A stretch of 64,000 nucleotides of DNA. It comes from Psychroserpens algicola. Its GTDB lineage: Bacteria > Bacteroidota > Bacteroidia > Flavobacteriales > Flavobacteriaceae. This document shows, in pieces, positions 56,201 through 64,000 of the stretch (the stretch's first letter is position 1; every line of letters begins with the position of its first letter). The stretch covers positions 124,001 to 188,000 of the forward strand of contig NZ_JACNMJ010000008.1 in NCBI RefSeq assembly GCF_014526325.1, given 5' to 3'. The notes under the pieces were generated by a model. It had not been told where the DNA came from, ran no database searches, and was given only the letters and a program-made list of their open reading frames with translations. A program made the position numbers and the translations under genes.

Positions 56201-57105
56201 TGAATGCTGTTGATGATTATACGCATTTAACGTCTGGAACTTGGACAACCGATGATCATTTAAATAGCTTAGTTGCTGATTTAATTCACAACTACAAGAT
56301 TAAAGAAAATGATTTACAAGGATCATTACGTCGCGAGAAGTTTACCATTTCGGTAGGTGATGAATTACCAGCAGGTATTATCAAATTAGCTAAAGTTTAT
56401 GTTGCTAAGAAACGTAAATTAAAAGTTGGTGATAAAATGGCAGGACGTCACGGAAATAAAGGTATCGTTGCTCGTATCGTTCGTCAAGAGGATATGCCAT
56501 TCTTAGAAGATGGAACGCCTGTTGATATTGTATTAAATCCACTTGGTGTACCATCTCGTATGAACATTGGGCAGATTTATGAAACGGTTCTTGGTTGGGC
56601 TGGACAAAAATTAGGGCGTACATATGCGACACCTATTTTTGATGGTGCAACTCTAGATCAAATCAACGCGTTTACAGATGAAGCAGGCGTACCAAGATTT
56701 GGTCATACATACTTATATGATGGTGGAACAGGAGATCGTTTTGATCAACCAGCAACAGTAGGTGTGATTTATATGATTAAGTTAGGTCACATGATTGACG
56801 ATAAGATGCACGCTCGTTCAATTGGTCCATACTCATTAATTACGCAACAACCATTAGGTGGTAAAGCACAATTTGGTGGTCAGCGTTTTGGAGAGATGGA
56901 AGTTTGGGCACTTGAGGCTTATGGAGCTTCAGCAACATTACGTGAAATCTTAACAGTAAAATCTGATGATGTAATAGGTAGAGCTAAAACTTACGAAGCA
57001 ATCGTAAAAGGAGAGCCAATGCCAGAACCAGGACTACCTGAATCTTTCAACGTATTAATGCACGAATTGAAAGGATTAGGATTAGATATTAGATTAGAAG
57101 AATAA
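53293..57105 (+). CDS. rpoB: RNA polymerase beta subunit
   Basis: This is a 1270-residue subunit. The rifampicin region is intact and of the sensitive type: [20 protein letters not shown] followed by LSALGPGGL, with Asp, His and Ser in the positions usually mutated. The C-terminal [19 protein letters not shown] is also canonical. Start is at ATG 53293 after the structured spacer. rpoC follows after a 74-bp spacer with a long inverted repeat. Confidence 0.99.
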
Positions 57106-57119
57106 TTAAAACAGTTTAC

Positions 57120-57157
57120 AGTATTCAGTTAGCAGTCAAAACTGTCAACTGAATACT
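57120..57157. repeat. Long inverted repeat in the rpoB-rpoC spacer
   Basis: AGTATTCAGTT (57120-57130) pairs with AACTGAATACT (57147-57157), and inside CAGT (57133-57136) pairs with ACTG (57141-57144). The right arm is repeated as ACTGAATACT at 57164-57173. It lies 22 bp before the rpoC ATG. It may be a small dispersed element or an RNA processing site; no T-run follows. Confidence 0.6.
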
Positions 57158-57179
57158 GATTACTGAATACTATAAAGAA

Positions 57180-60100
57180 ATGGCAAGAAGACAAGATAAG
57201 AATACAGTACAGAGATTTAATAAAATCTCAATTGGTTTAGCATCACCTGAATCTGTTTTAGCAGCATCTCGTGGTGAAGTATTAAAACCAGAAACTATTA
57301 ATTATCGAACACATAAACCTGAACGTGACGGTTTATTCTGTGAGCGTATTTTTGGTCCTGTAAAGGATTTTGAATGTGCTTGTGGTAAATATAAAAGAAT
57401 TCGCTACAAAGGAATCGTTTGTGACCGTTGTGGTGTAGAAGTAACTGAAAAGAAAGTACGTCGTGATCGCGTAGGACACATCAACCTTGTTGTGCCTGTT
57501 GCTCATATCTGGTATTTCCGTTCATTACCTAACAAAATTGGATACTTACTTGGTTTACCATCTAAGCGTTTAGATATGATTATCTATTACGAACGCTATG
57601 TCGTCATTCAACCAGGTGAGGCTAAAAATGCAGAAGGAGAACCATTACAAAAAATGGATTTCTTAACTGAAGAAGAGTACCTTAATATTATGGAGTCTCT
57701 TCCTCAAGAAAACAGACATTTAGATGATACAGACCCAAATAAGTTTATTGCTAAAATGGGAGCTGAATGTTTAATCGAATTGTTATCGAGAATCGATTTA
57801 AACGAATTGTCATTTGAGTTACGTCATAAAGCAAATACAGAAACCTCTAAACAACGTAAAACAGAAGCCTTAAAACGTTTACAAGTTGTTGAAGCGTTTA
57901 GAGATTCTAATGCCAATAGAGAGAATAAGCCAGAATGGATGATCATGAAGGCTATTCCAATCATTCCGCCAGAATTAAGACCTTTAGTGCCTTTAGATGG
58001 TGGACGTTTTGCAACATCAGATTTAAATGATCTTTATCGTCGTGTTATTATTCGTAATAACCGTTTAAAGCGTTTAGTTGAAATCAAAGCTCCAGAAGTT
58101 ATTTTACGTAATGAAAAACGTATGTTACAAGAATCTGTAGATTCATTATTTGATAACACACGTAAAGCTTCTGCAGTAAAGACAGATTCTAACAGGCCTT
58201 TAAAATCTTTATCAGATTCTTTAAAAGGTAAGCAAGGACGTTTCCGTCAAAACTTATTGGGTAAACGTGTTGATTATTCGGCGCGTTCGGTAATTGTTGT
58301 CGGACCAGAATTAAAATTATTTGAATGTGGATTGCCTAAAAATATGGCAGCCGAATTATACAAGCCATTTATCATCAGAAAATTGATTGAAAGAGGGATT
58401 GTAAAAACGGTTAAATCTGCAAAGAAAATTATAGATAGAAAAGAGCCTGTGGTTTGGGATATCTTAGAGAATGTTCTTAAAGGACATCCAGTATTACTAA
58501 ACCGTGCGCCTACATTACACAGATTAGGTATTCAAGCATTCCAACCTAAATTAATAGAAGGGAAAGCAATTCAGTTACACCCATTAGTGTGTACTGCATT
58601 TAATGCCGATTTTGATGGTGATCAAATGGCTGTGCATTTACCATTAGGTCCAGAAGCAATTTTGGAAGCACAGTTATTGATGTTAGCATCGCATAATATT
58701 TTAAACCCGGCAAACGGTTCTCCAGTAACAGTCCCTTCTCAGGATATGGTACTTGGTCTGTATTATATGACCAAACTTAGAAAGTCTGATAAAGACTATA
58801 CTGTTAAAGGTGAAGGTCTAACATTCTACTCACCTGAAGAAGTTACTATTGCTTATAATGAGAAGAAAGTTGATTTAAATGCTGGTATTAAAGTAAGAAC
58901 TCAGGATTTTAATGAAGAAGGTGAGTTAACTACACAAATTATTGAAACAACTGTCGGACGTGTACTTTTCAACGAAAAAGTTCCTGCTGCAGCTGGTTAC
59001 ATTAATGAGGTATTGACTAAAAAATCGTTAAGAGATATTATCCATGGTATTCTTAAAAAGACAAGTGTGCCAGAAACGGCTGCTTTCTTAGATGAGATTA
59101 AAACTCAAGGATATAAGTTTGCCTTCCAAGGTGGTTTGTCATTCAGTTTAGGTGATATTATTATTCCTGCTGAAAAACAAAGTATGATTGACAAAGCGAA
59201 TGGCTTAGTTGATGGTATTATGGGTAACTATAACATGGGATTAATTACTAATAACGAACGTTATAACCAAGTTATTGATATCTGGACGTCTACCAATGCT
59301 GAATTAACAGAGTTATCTATGAAACGTATCCGTGAGGATCAACAAGGATTTAACTCGGTATTTATGATGCTTGATTCTGGAGCTCGTGGATCTAAAGAAC
59401 AGATCCGTCAGTTAACAGGTATGCGTGGATTAATGGCGAAACCTAAAAAATCTAATGCTGGTGGTGGAGAAATTATTGAGAATCCAATTCTTTCTAACTT
59501 TAAAGAAGGACTTTCAATTTTAGAATACTTTATTTCTACTCACGGTGCGCGTAAAGGTCTTGCCGATACCGCTCTTAAAACAGCCGATGCAGGATATTTA
59601 ACACGTCGTTTAGTAGATGTATCTCAGGATGTTATCATTTACACAGAAGATTGTGGAACATTAAGAGGTATTGAAGTTAACCCGTTAAAGAAAAACGAAG
59701 AAGTTATCGAAACTCTCGAGGCAAGAATTGTTGGTCGTACCTCATTAAATGATGTTTACGATCCAATTACTGAAGAGTTATTAGTTGAAGCAGGTGGTCA
59801 TATTGACGATGCTATCGCTAAGCGTATTCAAGCATCTCCATTAGATGCTATCGAAGTACGTTCGGCTTTAACTTGTGAAGCTAAAAAAGGTATTTGTTCT
59901 AAATGTTATGGTCGTAATTTAGCGACAGGTAAGATGGTACAACGAGGAGAAGCCGTTGGTGTTGTGGCAGCACAATCTATTGGTGAACCTGGTACACAGC
60001 TTACGCTTCGTACTTTCCACGTAGGTGGTATTGCTGGTAACATTTCTGAAGAAAATAAATTAACTGTGAAATTCGATGGTATTGCTGAAATCGAAGATCT

Positions 60101-61481
60101 TAAAACAGTTAAGAGTACTGATAATGAAGGAAAAGAAGTTGACGTTGTTATTTCTCGTACTTCTGAATTAAAATTAACGGATGCTAAAACAGGTATCACA
60201 TTAAGTACAAATAATATTCCTTACGGATCATTTATCTATGTTAAACCAGGTGATAAAGTGAAAAAAGGAGATACCATTTGTCAATGGGATCCTTATAACG
60301 GTGTAATTATTTCAGAATTTGCTGGTAAAGTGAAGTATGAAAACATCGAGCAAGGTGTTACATATCAAGTAGAAATTGATGAACAAACTGGTTTCCAAGA
60401 GAAAGTTATTTCTGAATCGAGAAACAAAAAATTGATTCCTACATTACACATTGAAGATTCAAAAGGAGAAACAATTCGTTCTTATAATTTACCTGTAGGA
60501 GCTCACCTTATGATTGACGATGGTGAGAAAATTAAGGTTGGTAAAATCTTAGTTAAGATTCCTCGTAAATCTGCAAAAGCTGGTGATATTACTGGTGGTT
60601 TACCTCGTGTAACTGAATTATTCGAAGCTCGTAACCCTTCTAATCCTGCTGTAGTAAGTGAGATTGATGGTGTTGTGTCTTTTGGAAAAATCAAAAGAGG
60701 TAACCGTGAAATCATTATCGAGTCTAAACTTGGTGAGATTAAGAAATACTTAGTGAAACTATCAAATCAGATTCTTGTTCAAGAAAATGATTATGTTAAA
60801 GCAGGTATGCCATTATCTGATGGTTCAATCACACCTAATGATATTTTAAATATTAAAGGACCTGCTGCAGTTCAGCAGTACTTGGTAAATGAAGTACAGG
60901 AAGTATACCGTTTACAAGGGGTGAAAATTAATGATAAGCACTTTGAGGTAGTTGTTAGACAGATGATGCGTAAAGTTAGAATTATTGATTCTGGTGATAC
61001 TATTTTCTTAGAAGATCAACTGGTTCATAAATCTGATTTCATTGAAGAAAATGATAAAATTTTCGGATTGAAAGTGGTTACCGAAGTAGGAGATTCTCAA
61101 AACTTAAAGGCTGGTCAGGTCTTAACTTCTAGAGAGTTAAGAGATGAAAACTCAATACTACGTAGAGAAGATAAAGCATTAGTAGTTGCTCGTGATGCGC
61201 AACCTGCTACAGCTACGCCAATCTTACAAGGTATTACAAGAGCTTCATTACAAACGAAATCGTTTATATCTGCGGCATCCTTCCAAGAAACAACTAAGGT
61301 TCTTAATGAAGCTGCGGTAAACGGTAAGATTGATGACCTTGAAGGTTTAAAAGAGAATGTAATTGTCGGTCATAGAATTCCAGCCGGAACAGGTGTTAGA
61401 AAATTTGATAACATCATTGTAGGTTCTAAGGAAGAGTTCAATGAAATGATGAAGGCAAAAGAAGAGATGAATTACAACTAA
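57180..61481 (+). CDS. rpoC: RNA polymerase beta' subunit
   Basis: This is a 1433-residue subunit. The N-terminal zinc finger has four Cys (CACGK and CDRCG, about residues 67-85). The catalytic triad of Asp is in [12 protein letters not shown] (about 477-488). The bridge helix and trigger loop regions follow, including FHVGGIAGN (about 949-957). The insert pattern and length fit Bacteroidetes. It ends the rpl-rpo operon and is followed by a strong terminator at 61568. Confidence 0.99.
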
Positions 61482-61535
61482 ATGAGACTCGGACTTCTCG
61501 AGCTTAAGGCAACGTGAAATCCGATAGTCGAATTT

Positions 61536-61558
61536 ATGCCAACGCAGGTTGGGATCTC
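61536..61558. repeat. 8-4-8 hairpin element followed by CTC, copy 2
   Basis: ATGCCAAC (61536-61543), loop GCAG, GTTGGGAT (61548-61555), then CTC. Seven of eight pairs form, with base changes on both sides compared with the copy at 48688. It lies 54 bp after the rpoC stop. Confidence 0.5.
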
Positions 61559-61567
61559 TATAATAAT

Positions 61568-61598
61568 AAAAAGTCCTGCTGAAATAGTAGGACTTTTT
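61568..61598 (+). terminator. Intrinsic terminator of the rpoBC operon
   Basis: 13-bp stem AAAAAGTCCTGCT (61568-61580) and AGTAGGACTTTTT (61586-61598) with one G-U pair and a 5-nt loop. It contains its own T-run and works on both strands. Confidence 0.85.
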
Positions 61599-61625
61599 AC
61601 TTTTTAAAATAAAATATTAATAAGA

Positions 61626-61659
61626 CTTCCACTTTCGTGGAAGCGTAAACAAGTTTACG
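61626..61659 (+). promoter_or_regulatory. Twin hairpins directly before the DUF3467 start codon
   Basis: Hairpin 1 is CTTCCAC-TTTC-GTGGAAG (61626-61643) and hairpin 2 is CGTAAAC-AA-GTTTACG (61644-61659). Both stems are perfect, they are adjacent without a gap, and the second ends at the base before the ATG at 61660. The 34-nt upstream region is therefore entirely paired in the predicted RNA. Confidence 0.6.
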
Positions 61660-61974
61660 ATGGCAGAAGAAAAAAAAGCAAAAAAACCAGGAATCAATAT
61701 TGAATTGGATGAAAAAATCGCTGAAGGAACGTATTCTAACTTGGCAATAATAAATCATTCGGTTTCCGAATTCGTAATTGATTTTGTAAGTGTTATGCCT
61801 GGAACTCCAAAAAGTAAAGTAAAATCCAGAATTATATTAACACCACAACATGCCAAGCGATTATTAAAAGCTTTGGGTGATAATGTTCATCGTTTTGAAA
61901 AAGCTCATGGTGAAATTAAAGATTACGAGCAACCACCAATACCATTGAATTTTGGACCGACAGGTCAGGCTTAA
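61660..61974 (+). CDS. DUF3467 family protein
   Basis: This is a 104-residue small protein of DUF3467, found in many bacteria and of unknown function. Typical segments are IAEGTYSNLAIINHSVSEFV (about 17-36), FVSVMPGTPKSKVKSRI (about 40-56) and TPQHAKRLLKALGDN (about 60-74). The start at ATG 61660 fits the family. The last 43 nt plus the following bases are duplicated downstream at 62033. It is isolated between terminators. Confidence 0.92.
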   Translation: MAEEKKAKKPGINIELDEKIAEGTYSNLAIINHSVSEFVIDFVSVMPGTPKSKVKSRIILTPQHAKRLLKALGDNVHRFEKAHGEIKDYEQPPIPLNFGPTGQA

Positions 61975-62089
61975 TTCAATTTTAATCGTTTTATAAAGTT
62001 ATAAAGTTCAGGTTGCTCGAAATGTTTTCATTAGCAACCACCAATACCATTGAATTTTGGGCCGACAGGTCAGGCTTAATTCAATTTTA
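61928..62089 (+). repeat. 57-bp direct repeat of the DUF3467 3' end
   Basis: Copy 1 is 61928-61984, containing the last codons and stop of the DUF3467 gene. Copy 2 is 62033-62089, with one base difference (A to G). The 48 bp between them include GGTTGCTCG (62011-62019), the reverse complement of CGAGCAACC at the copy 1 border. The rest of the 320-bp spacer holds the terminator at 62099; nothing else is seen. Confidence 0.9.
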
Positions 62090-62098
62090 GATTAATAA

Positions 62099-62128
62099 AA
62101 AAGCCCTTGAATTATTCAAGGGCTTTTA
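62099..62128. terminator. Bidirectional intrinsic terminator
   Basis: 13-bp perfect stem AAAAGCCCTTGAA (62099-62111) and TTCAAGGGCTTTT (62115-62127) with loop TTA and T-rich ends on both strands. It lies between the convergent DUF3467 and ferredoxin-like genes. Confidence 0.9.
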
Positions 62129-62294
62129 TATGAAATTTTGTTATGGTCAGAATTATTTTAAATTTTACTTAGACATCAGAAAAGGGGATAGGTCTGAGCC
62201 TATAATCTGTCAACAGCTACTTTAGCTAGCTTAACTCTTTGCATATACTTTTTTCTCAGAAAATTGTATAGCAATTTCAATAAGACAAATATCA

Positions 62295-62522
62295 TTAAGC
62301 AACTTCTTGATTGACGTGGAATTGTAATGCGCCAGAAGGGCATTTTTTTACTTGTTTAATGATTTTCTTAGTTGAAGCTCCATCAAGATCTATCCAAGGA
62401 ATAACAGATTGTCTAAATACATTGGAAAGTTCTCTTGCACAACGCTCAGCGTTTATGCACTTACACGGATTGTAGGTAACAGTAATATCGCTATTACTGA
62501 AAATGTTAGGATTTGTTTTCAT
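62295..62522 (-). CDS. Small divergent ferredoxin-like [4Fe-4S] protein
   Basis: This is a 75-residue protein of the Fer4_19 type, with Cys residues in the PCKC and ERCAREL segments (about residues 19-30) and KKCPSGAL near the C-terminus (about 58-65). Four Cys can hold one iron-sulfur cluster. Such proteins are often annotated only as (4Fe-4S)-binding. It is monocistronic, between the bidirectional terminator and prfC. The electron partner is unknown. Confidence 0.85.
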   Translation of the reverse strand: MKTNPNIFSNSDITVTYNPCKCINAERCARELSNVFRQSVIPWIDLDGASTKKIIKQVKKCPSGALQFHVNQEVA

Positions 62523-62664
62523 TGTAGATCAATTTTGGGGTTTGAATCTATCTTAAATTTAGATAACTAAAACGTTATCGTAACTTAATCAACGTTTAAA
62601 AGTATAAAATCATCGATTAAAAACAAATTTATTCTGAAATATTAGATGAACTGCACTGTTAAAT

Positions 62665-64000
62665 TTAGTCGAATTCTGATGTAAAGTGAAATATAATATT
62701 TGGATATTTCTGCTGAGTCATTTGTAAAGAAAACGCCGAATCAGCCAGAAATACTAGTTGTCCGCGCTTATCTTTAGCCAAAAATCGTTGTTTTACTCTA
62801 ATAAACTCTTTGTATTCTTCGCTTTTAGGGTTATCTGTTTCTATCCAACAAGCTTTATGAACATTTAGGTTTTCATAAGTACATTTTGCACCATATTCAT
62901 GCTCTAAACGATATTGAATAACTTCATATTGTAGTGCTCCTACAGTACCAATTACTTTTCTGCCATTAAGTTCTAGAGTAAATAATTGTGCTACACCTTC
63001 ATCCATTAACTGATCGATACCTTTATACAATTGTTTAGATTTTAAAGGGTCTGCATTGTTAATATATCTAAAGTGCTCAGGAGAAAAACTAGGAATTCCC
63101 TTATAATTTAAAACTTCACCTTCAGTTAATGTATCTCCAATTTTGAAATTTCCAGTATCTTGTAAACCTACTATGTCTCCAGGATAAGAGATATCTACAA
63201 TCTCTTTCTTTTCTGCAAAGAAGGCATTCGGACTAGAAAATTTGAGTTTTTTATTGTGTCTTACATGAAGGTAAGGTGTATTTCGCTTAAATTCACCAGA
63301 GACAATTTTAATAAAAGCCAATCGGTTTCTATGATTAGGATCCATATTAGCATGTATTTTGAAAACAAACCCAGTGAATTTTTTTTCGTCAGGTTTTACC
63401 AAACGTTCTTCGCTATGCTTTGCTCTTGGTTTTGGAGCAATATCAACAAAGCAATCTAAAAGTTCTCTTACACCAAAATTATTTAAGGCCGACCCAAAAA
63501 AGACAGGTTGTAATTGACCATTTAAATAGTCTTCTTTATTAAATTGAGGATAAATACCGTCAACAAGTTCAATCTCATCTCTAAGTGTTTGCGCTGCTTT
63601 ATCTCCAACTAATTTATCCAGTTCGGAAGAGGATAGGTCATTAATTTCGATGGTTTCTTCAATATCTTTTCTGCTATCACCACTAAACAGGTTAATATTT
63701 TTTTCCCAAATATTATAAATACCTTTAAAATCGTATCCCATTCCAATAGGAAAACTAAGCGGTACGACTTTTAAGCCAAGCTTTTGTTCAATTTCGTCTA
63801 ATAAATCAAAGGCGTCTTTACCTTCACGATCCATTTTATTAATAAAAACAATCATAGGGATGTTACGCATTCGACAAACTTCAACTAGCTTTTCAGTTTG
63901 CTCTTCGACACCTTTTGCAACATCAATTACAACAATTACACTATCAACAGCTGTTAAAGTTCTGAACGTGTCTTCTGCAAAATCCTTGTGACCTGGTGTG
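62665..64000 (-). CDS. prfC: Peptide chain release factor 3, C-terminal part
   Basis: This is the 3' part (about 445 residues) of RF3, a GTPase that releases class I release factors from the ribosome. The frame continues off the right window edge, where TPGHKDFAEDTFR (G3 motif) is visible, followed by NKMDREG (G4). The C-terminal half has ALQYEVIQYRLEHEYGAK, typical of RF3 rather than EF-G. Full RF3 is about 530 residues, so roughly the first 85 are missing. It reads away from the rpoBC operon. Confidence 0.94.
   Translation of the reverse strand, partial: TPGHKDFAEDTFRTLTAVDSVIVVIDVAKGVEEQTEKLVEVCRMRNIPMIVFINKMDREGKDAFDLLDEIEQKLGLKVVPLSFPIGMGYDFKGIYNIWEKNINLFSGDSRKDIEETIEINDLSSSELDKLVGDKAAQTLRDEIELVDGIYPQFNKEDYLNGQLQPVFFGSALNNFGVRELLDCFVDIAPKPRAKHSEERLVKPDEKKFTGFVFKIHANMDPNHRNRLAFIKIVSGEFKRNTPYLHVRHNKKLKFSSPNAFFAEKKEIVDISYPGDIVGLQDTGNFKIGDTLTEGEVLNYKGIPSFSPEHFRYINNADPLKSKQLYKGIDQLMDEGVAQLFTLELNGRKVIGTVGALQYEVIQYRLEHEYGAKCTYENLNVHKACWIETDNPKSEEYKEFIRVKQRFLAKDKRGQLVFLADSAFSLQMTQQKYPNIIFHFTSEFD

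Follow-up and report, generated by a model that had tools for sequence, protein, structure and literature searches.

REP elements are short dispersed palindromes with fixed flanks, and the ompA leader is a 5'-terminal stabilising stem-loop. The paired-hairpin element described here resembles REP elements in being short, dispersed and palindromic with fixed flanks but directly abuts start codons, in many cases together with another hairpin. With ompA-type leaders it would share a stem-loop near the mRNA 5' end, just upstream of the initiation region, but those leaders belong to single genes of hosts that use Shine-Dalgarno (SD) pairing, whereas this one stands before dozens of genes unrelated to one another, in hosts where such pairing is rare. 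A third comparison is offered by Flavo-1 RNA (RF01705), likewise a computationally inferred motif that is dispersed and common in Flavobacteriaceae. According to the available part of one source, Flavo-1 in F. psychrophilum occurs sense or antisense of transcripts (PMC9723704). The same part of that source reports 64 structured 5' regions in this species; such regions resemble the present element in occurring in the same family, lacking an Rfam match and standing before metabolic genes, but are described singly and in one species, and the part available mentions no shared double-hairpin family ending at AUG (PMC9723704). Some of them could be related to the leaders described below. The main texts of open-licence papers, including those on palindromic repeats of Flavobacteriaceae and on start-codon hairpins of Bacteroidetes, yielded no description of the paired-hairpin family. 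The means by which Bacteroidota, in the absence of SD pairing, select and adjust their start codons are an open question. An element that recurs at one distance from the AUGs of many genes, and that comes with natural variants and compensations, makes this question directly testable; the element is also a candidate RNA family for annotation.

The window, a stretch of 64,000 nucleotides from Psychroserpens algicola, carries the element directly before a gene of the DUF3467 family, in the following setting.

57180..61481, + strand, upstream open reading frame of 1433 amino acids, which we take from its sequence to be rpoC
61567..61599, + strand, terminator-like hairpin and T run between rpoC and the leader, from a pattern scan only
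61623..61662, + strand, whole element, matched by covariance models R1 (4.1e-6) and R2 (3.3e-7)
61623..61625, + strand, unpaired AGA flank, common to most family members (consensus AGATTTCC)
61626..61643, + strand, hairpin 1 (HP1), CTTCCAC-TTTC-GTGGAAG, with its 3' end at -17 relative to the ATG
61644..61659, + strand, hairpin 2 (HP2), CGTAAA-CAAG-TTTACG, abutting the ATG without a gap
61660..61974, + strand, DUF3467 gene downstream of the leader, 104 amino acids (Pfam PF11950, E 2.5e-33)

The earlier note had reported two perfect adjoining hairpins directly before the DUF3467 ATG, and its sequence and coordinates proved correct: the inverted repeats I12 (61626-61632/61637-61643, HP1) and I9 (61644-61650/61653-61659, HP2) are both 100% identical, and the hairpins fill 61626-61659, up to the ATG at 61660-61662. 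As RNA, HP1 has the 7-bp stem proposed there, closed by a UUUC loop, whereas the 7-bp stem with a 2-nt loop assigned to HP2 cannot close in RNA and becomes a 6-bp stem with a CAAG loop. The predicted folding energy of 61620-61662 is -13.4 kcal/mol, compared with -5.07 in shuffles (sd 2.4, z -3.47, 1/200 equally good), and predicted folding gives -8.8 kcal/mol for HP1 alone and only -2.2 for HP2 alone. At the curated score, no Rfam 15 family matched the element in window positions 57000-64000 or in 20 element loci, the matches touching the window element being far below gathering scores (E 0.13 to 4.8). Flavo-1 is abundant in the same genomes as the leader family, but its 76-position model had no match in 57000-64000 up to E 5 nor in the 20 loci up to E 1, and by eye no overlap was seen among the Flavo-1 and leader matches listed for a genome of a second genus (G212); kinship with Flavo-1 was rejected, as its sequences differ.

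Covariance models were used to look for further copies. Alignment A2 held 24 DUF3467 leaders hand-picked for hairpin presence from 95-96 distinct leaders, so that models R1 and R2, both ending in ATG, favour paired leaders; two rows, L003 and L004, are shifted by one base in alignments A2 and A4, which creates false U-G pairs there. Model R3, which keeps HP2 but lacks the ATG, was built from 28 rows of equal length. R1 had a match at E <= 1 in 33 of 57 genomes and detected copies away from DUF3467 in relatives; 40 of these off-site matches were fetched, and every one closes with the ATG of some other open reading frame (42 to 481 codons as read). Among 51 further matches read in other genera, 48 reach an ATG that opens a frame of 86 codons or more. 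With R3, 23 of the 28 best matches in G212 have their end at most 3 nt upstream or 2 nt downstream of an ATG that opens a frame longer than 100 codons; the other five do not. The window's own genome has a single strong R3 match, the DUF3467 copy (E 4.5e-7); a weaker one, at C16:140730 with E 0.31, represents a GC-rich form, CACGCAAGCGTG-ATG (L312), before a frame that is presumably enoyl-CoA-hydratase-like. The 28 equal-length members have the consensus AGATTTCCGTTTTCACGGAAACGAAAATAAATTTTCG, followed by ATG. HP1, with the consensus AGAUUUCC-n-GGAAA, usually ends about 17-19 nt upstream of the start codon and is often followed by HP2, an AU-rich second stem that ends at the AUG.

R2 found between 1 and 36 matches at E <= 1 in each of the 23 genomes searched in the genus (23/23). 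Searches of wider samples, of more than 40 genomes, used strict filters, with only 22-33 candidates scored per genome, and therefore give lower bounds: at least 81 of 299 sampled Flavobacteriaceae genomes at E <= 0.01, at least 6 of 196 in an order-wide draw (outside the family only G437 and G455) and at least 6 of 296 in a phylum-wide draw (outside the family only G562 and G742), the last two draws including the window's own genome and family. Of the loci seen from G562 and G742 (L380-L382), two from G562, which belongs to another family (L381 and L382), look like plain paired REP-type palindromes with ..TTTTGTCATGCCC, matched by the model but not start-codon leaders. The element recurs as a structured leader at the starts of dozens of unrelated genes in Flavobacteriaceae, a family of marine bacteria, apparently as an undescribed family of leaders, and on these matches it appears to have almost no members outside Flavobacteriaceae among the genomes sampled. 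Over all genes of the stretches taken from G016 and from the window's genome (G000), no peak of hairpins at -17 was detected, so the element concerns a minority of genes. A second HP1-like element, in either orientation, was seen near the leader in two loci (L277:1163-1204 and L256:1458-1500). An upstream mini-ORF overlapping the ATG, suggested by ATGAAAATAAATTTTCAATGA in some leaders, was discarded: by eye, its spacing takes every reading frame, and in many leaders ACG stands in its place.

At DUF3467 itself, the same leader type was found in other Psychroserpens and in Bizionia, Winogradskyella, Algibacter and Oceanihabitans. In Bizionia saleffrena (L082) HP2 and its neighbouring bases are identical letter for letter; in other orthologous leaders the arms, above all those of HP1, are altered yet still paired. 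The element is present in 25 of 92 DUF3467 leaders, and on a tree its presence requires 14 changes, compared with 22.1 when shuffled (0/500 as low); 11 loci were left out of this tree and 8 DUF3467 loci had been dropped earlier, their start not being found. This distribution indicates repeated gain or loss at the DUF3467 site, with quick turnover. The earlier note had seen a regulated leader of DUF3467. That the element belongs to DUF3467 in particular is not supported, and regulation specific to this gene was rejected in view of the off-site copies before other genes; that no more than 25 of the 92 DUF3467 leaders carry the element also speaks partly against the note.

In alignment A2, 80.8% of cells are paired and double-side changes number 41 (shuffles, 17.7); the covariation score is 0.326, and sliding the partners gives no more than 0.156. 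In the model-based alignment of 59 leaders, 124 cells changed on both sides, compared with 41.4 in shuffles, and both helices contribute. That alignment was fitted to the structure, and leaders chosen by protein alone provide the cleaner test; in these, the pairing of each leader's own arms was compared with that of arms swapped between species in 5000 swaps. At -15 to -21, no swap was equal for DUF3467 within the genus (22 leaders, z 4.8, 0/5000) or for 3-hydroxybutyryl-CoA dehydrogenase (hbd; 23 leaders, z 6.1, 0/5000). Windows upstream of -21 in the same leaders, a better control than another gene, showed no such consistent excess (z -1.5, 2.8 and -0.5 for DUF3467; 1.3, -0.5 and 0.2 for hbd), and Fer4_19, a weak control gene recovered from just 7 of 22 loci, gave z 1.6 at -15 to -21. 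For HP2, 43 of 5000 swaps were equal at DUF3467, and the test was not significant at hbd (z 1.4, 480/5000). A perfect 6-bp HP2 occurs in 58 of 111 model-selected elements compared with 2.8 when the spacer is shuffled, in a set whose models themselves select for HP2. Because own-arm pairing is strong at -15 to -21 and weaker for HP2, HP1 is the conserved core, with HP2 common and less constrained. Covarying stems at a fixed place before starts were thus found, clearly for HP1 and weakly for HP2. The covariation in relatives to which the earlier note had looked is there for both stems, most firmly for HP1, while HP2 is weakly conserved at orthologous sites.

The sigma-A -7 box of flavobacteria is TAnnTTTG, according to the available part of PMC9723704. 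It occurs within 100 nt upstream of 26 of 108 elements (6.9 when shuffled), mostly 15-35 nt before the element, and inside 2 of 111 (2.5 expected); none was seen in the window leader. The placement of the boxes before the element and not in it fits transcription beginning shortly upstream of HP1. A start inside the hairpins, which the earlier note had named as evidence against a leader, is not where the promoter scan puts these boxes. Compared with 701 genes, the leaders are enriched in A at -13/-12 (90/89% vs 53/51%) and in U at -6 to -3 (79/93/93/66% vs 34/29/31/26%), the two stretches being the two arms of HP2. In the available part of a study of F. johnsoniae, A at -12, -13, -3 and -6 favours translation, U at -3 is rarer in well-translated genes, and these genes tend to have less structure within -20 to +20 (PMC6847099). 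Compared with 600 ordinary genes, the leaders are predicted to have a less paired AUG (0.32 vs 0.54 at 37 °C), positions -6 to -3 are predicted to be more paired (0.71 vs 0.39), and positions -14 to -11 are on average no more paired (0.41 vs 0.39), the ordinary-gene controls being naive longest-ORF starts of which some are wrong. Since the A-rich stretch is not generally buried and the AUG is less paired, a leader that keeps the start zone clear is, on these predictions, as possible as one that tunes initiation down. Of the two modes offered in the earlier note, a start codon presented unpaired and a block on initiation, they favour neither.

Our tentative preference, held at somewhat less than an even chance, is for a short structured 5' leader of Flavobacteriaceae mRNAs that would act on translation start or on mRNA stability. 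HP1 would be a stem-loop close to the 5' end of the mRNA, where the footprint of the initiating 30S subunit has its upstream edge; there it might shield the mRNA 5' end and keep the initiation region from pairing elsewhere. HP2 would bring the A-rich stretch from -14 to -11, which enhances initiation in Flavobacterium, into pairing with the U at -6 to -3; it would have to melt upon 30S binding and might thereby set initiation strength. One caution that follows is that enhancers of the A-12/A-13 type can be tied up in local structure. That the leader is a lineage-specific element marking or tuning start codons in non-SD bacteria, as a post-transcriptional regulon or a general initiation or stability module with a dedicated recognition factor, is a bolder proposal, and a rather doubtful one.

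Several other explanations make different use of the same palindromes. A dispersed DNA repeat of the REP type, spread by copying, kept palindromic by mutation and having no role in the mRNA, would account for the turnover at the DUF3467 site and for the resemblance of HP1, flanks included, to other dispersed palindromes of these genomes (e.g. GAGATTCCTGCTTTCGCAGGAAT), HP1-like hairpins being dispersed in G016 and G212. It is an unlikely account, though worth keeping in sight: the preference for start codons is strong even in the model lacking the ATG (the 23 of 28 above), orthologues keep drifted yet paired hairpins at the same -17 position, and nothing nearly identical to the 71-nt window element occurs elsewhere in its genome. 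Similarly unlikely, and perhaps a little more so, is an outward terminator or insulator, in which the 3' side of HP1 faces the gene and RNA polymerase on its way out, past the stop codon or antisense from the start, would transcribe the complementary hairpin (GAAA loop, U-containing tail) and stop there. HP1-like hairpins (AGATTCC..GGAAT in G016, G212 and G000; L199-L215, L219-L238, L353-L372 and the window) tend to have their 3' side against starts and stops: a gene edge lies within 25 nt of that side in 19 of 32 (12 starts, 7 stops), as opposed to 4 of 32 for the 5' side, a bias that, stop codons included, fits terminator and REP-type repeat alike; moreover, the minus-strand version in the window (61644-61625) scored terminator-like in a pattern scan. 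The tail, however, would read UCU UAUUA, the AGA flank has a common G, the upstream A content forms no run, and HP2 and the flush ATG are left unexplained. Mismatch counts bear on the strand: in HP1, G-U against A-C stands at 20:5 in the model-selected leaders, a biased set, pointing to the sense strand, but at 17:12 in protein-selected leaders, which does not favour it; in HP2 of model-selected leaders it is 6:22.

The remaining alternatives we regard as far less probable. Both hairpins are perfect DNA palindromes beside a start, as two operator sites for a dimeric regulator would be, but compensating changes alter the sequence that a protein would read (pair 9-20 is GC in 25, AU in 21 and UA in 5), the position is tied to the ATG and the -7 boxes lie upstream of the element, all of which makes an operator very improbable. 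An RNA thermometer of cold-adapted bacteria, in line with the suggestion in the earlier note that temperature might open the hairpins, could draw on the AU-rich HP2 flush with the AUG and on groEL and htpG among the targets; it is at least as improbable as the operator, since predicted pairing of the window HP2 is 0.95 at 5 °C and still 0.86 at 45 °C, and the named targets are mostly metabolic enzymes. Temperature sensing is thus unsupported by predicted melting, which shows no stem opening in the growth range. As for chance inverted repeats, double hairpins as such are common (202 over both strands in 464 kb of the window's genome), but the window element is the sole tandem double hairpin with such stems at a called gene start in those 464 kb (395 naively called genes), and its recurrence at starts across genera and genes, with covariation, refutes chance in the main and leaves it hardly credible. 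The earlier note had judged the pairing unlikely by chance, and both stems indeed exceed chance and covary across related genomes. A variant was observed in L205, L218, L359, L362 and L367, where HP1 stands alone, 6-8 nt before the ATG and without HP2; judging from these loci, it seems to be a second leader type.

Of 73 distinct target genes, 26 were scanned against family models or Pfam. Family models identified methylmalonyl-CoA epimerase, hbd, GroEL, RimM, CoaD, YchF, LeuD, HisF, TrpA, TrpD, ThrB, YebC, DapD, inorganic pyrophosphatase, biotin carboxylase, FabH and HtpG; Pfam added the ETF alpha subunit, enoyl-CoA hydratase, a thioesterase, glycerol-3-phosphate dehydrogenase, a class V aminotransferase and an isopropylmalate-dehydrogenase-type enzyme. 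A riboswitch for a single metabolite is unlikely because the scanned targets share no pathway.

The DUF3467 protein of the window has one Pfam hit; no convincing solved structural relative was found, and the one open-licence paper listed for DUF3467 does not concern its function. The terminator-like hairpin and T run after rpoC suggest that DUF3467 may have its own promoter. In the window (61935-62085), the 3' end of DUF3467, its stop and the following bases recur about 99 bp downstream, past the stop, and similar C-terminal fragments lie behind DUF3467 in G002 (two extra), G003, G004, G009, G012 and G014, a pattern that points to recurrent partial duplication. Upstream, positions 61483-61560, after the rpoC stop, resemble a degraded repeat that is also present in G009 (L011), and in many relatives the region after this stop contains the palindrome ATTCCTGC..GCAGGAAT.
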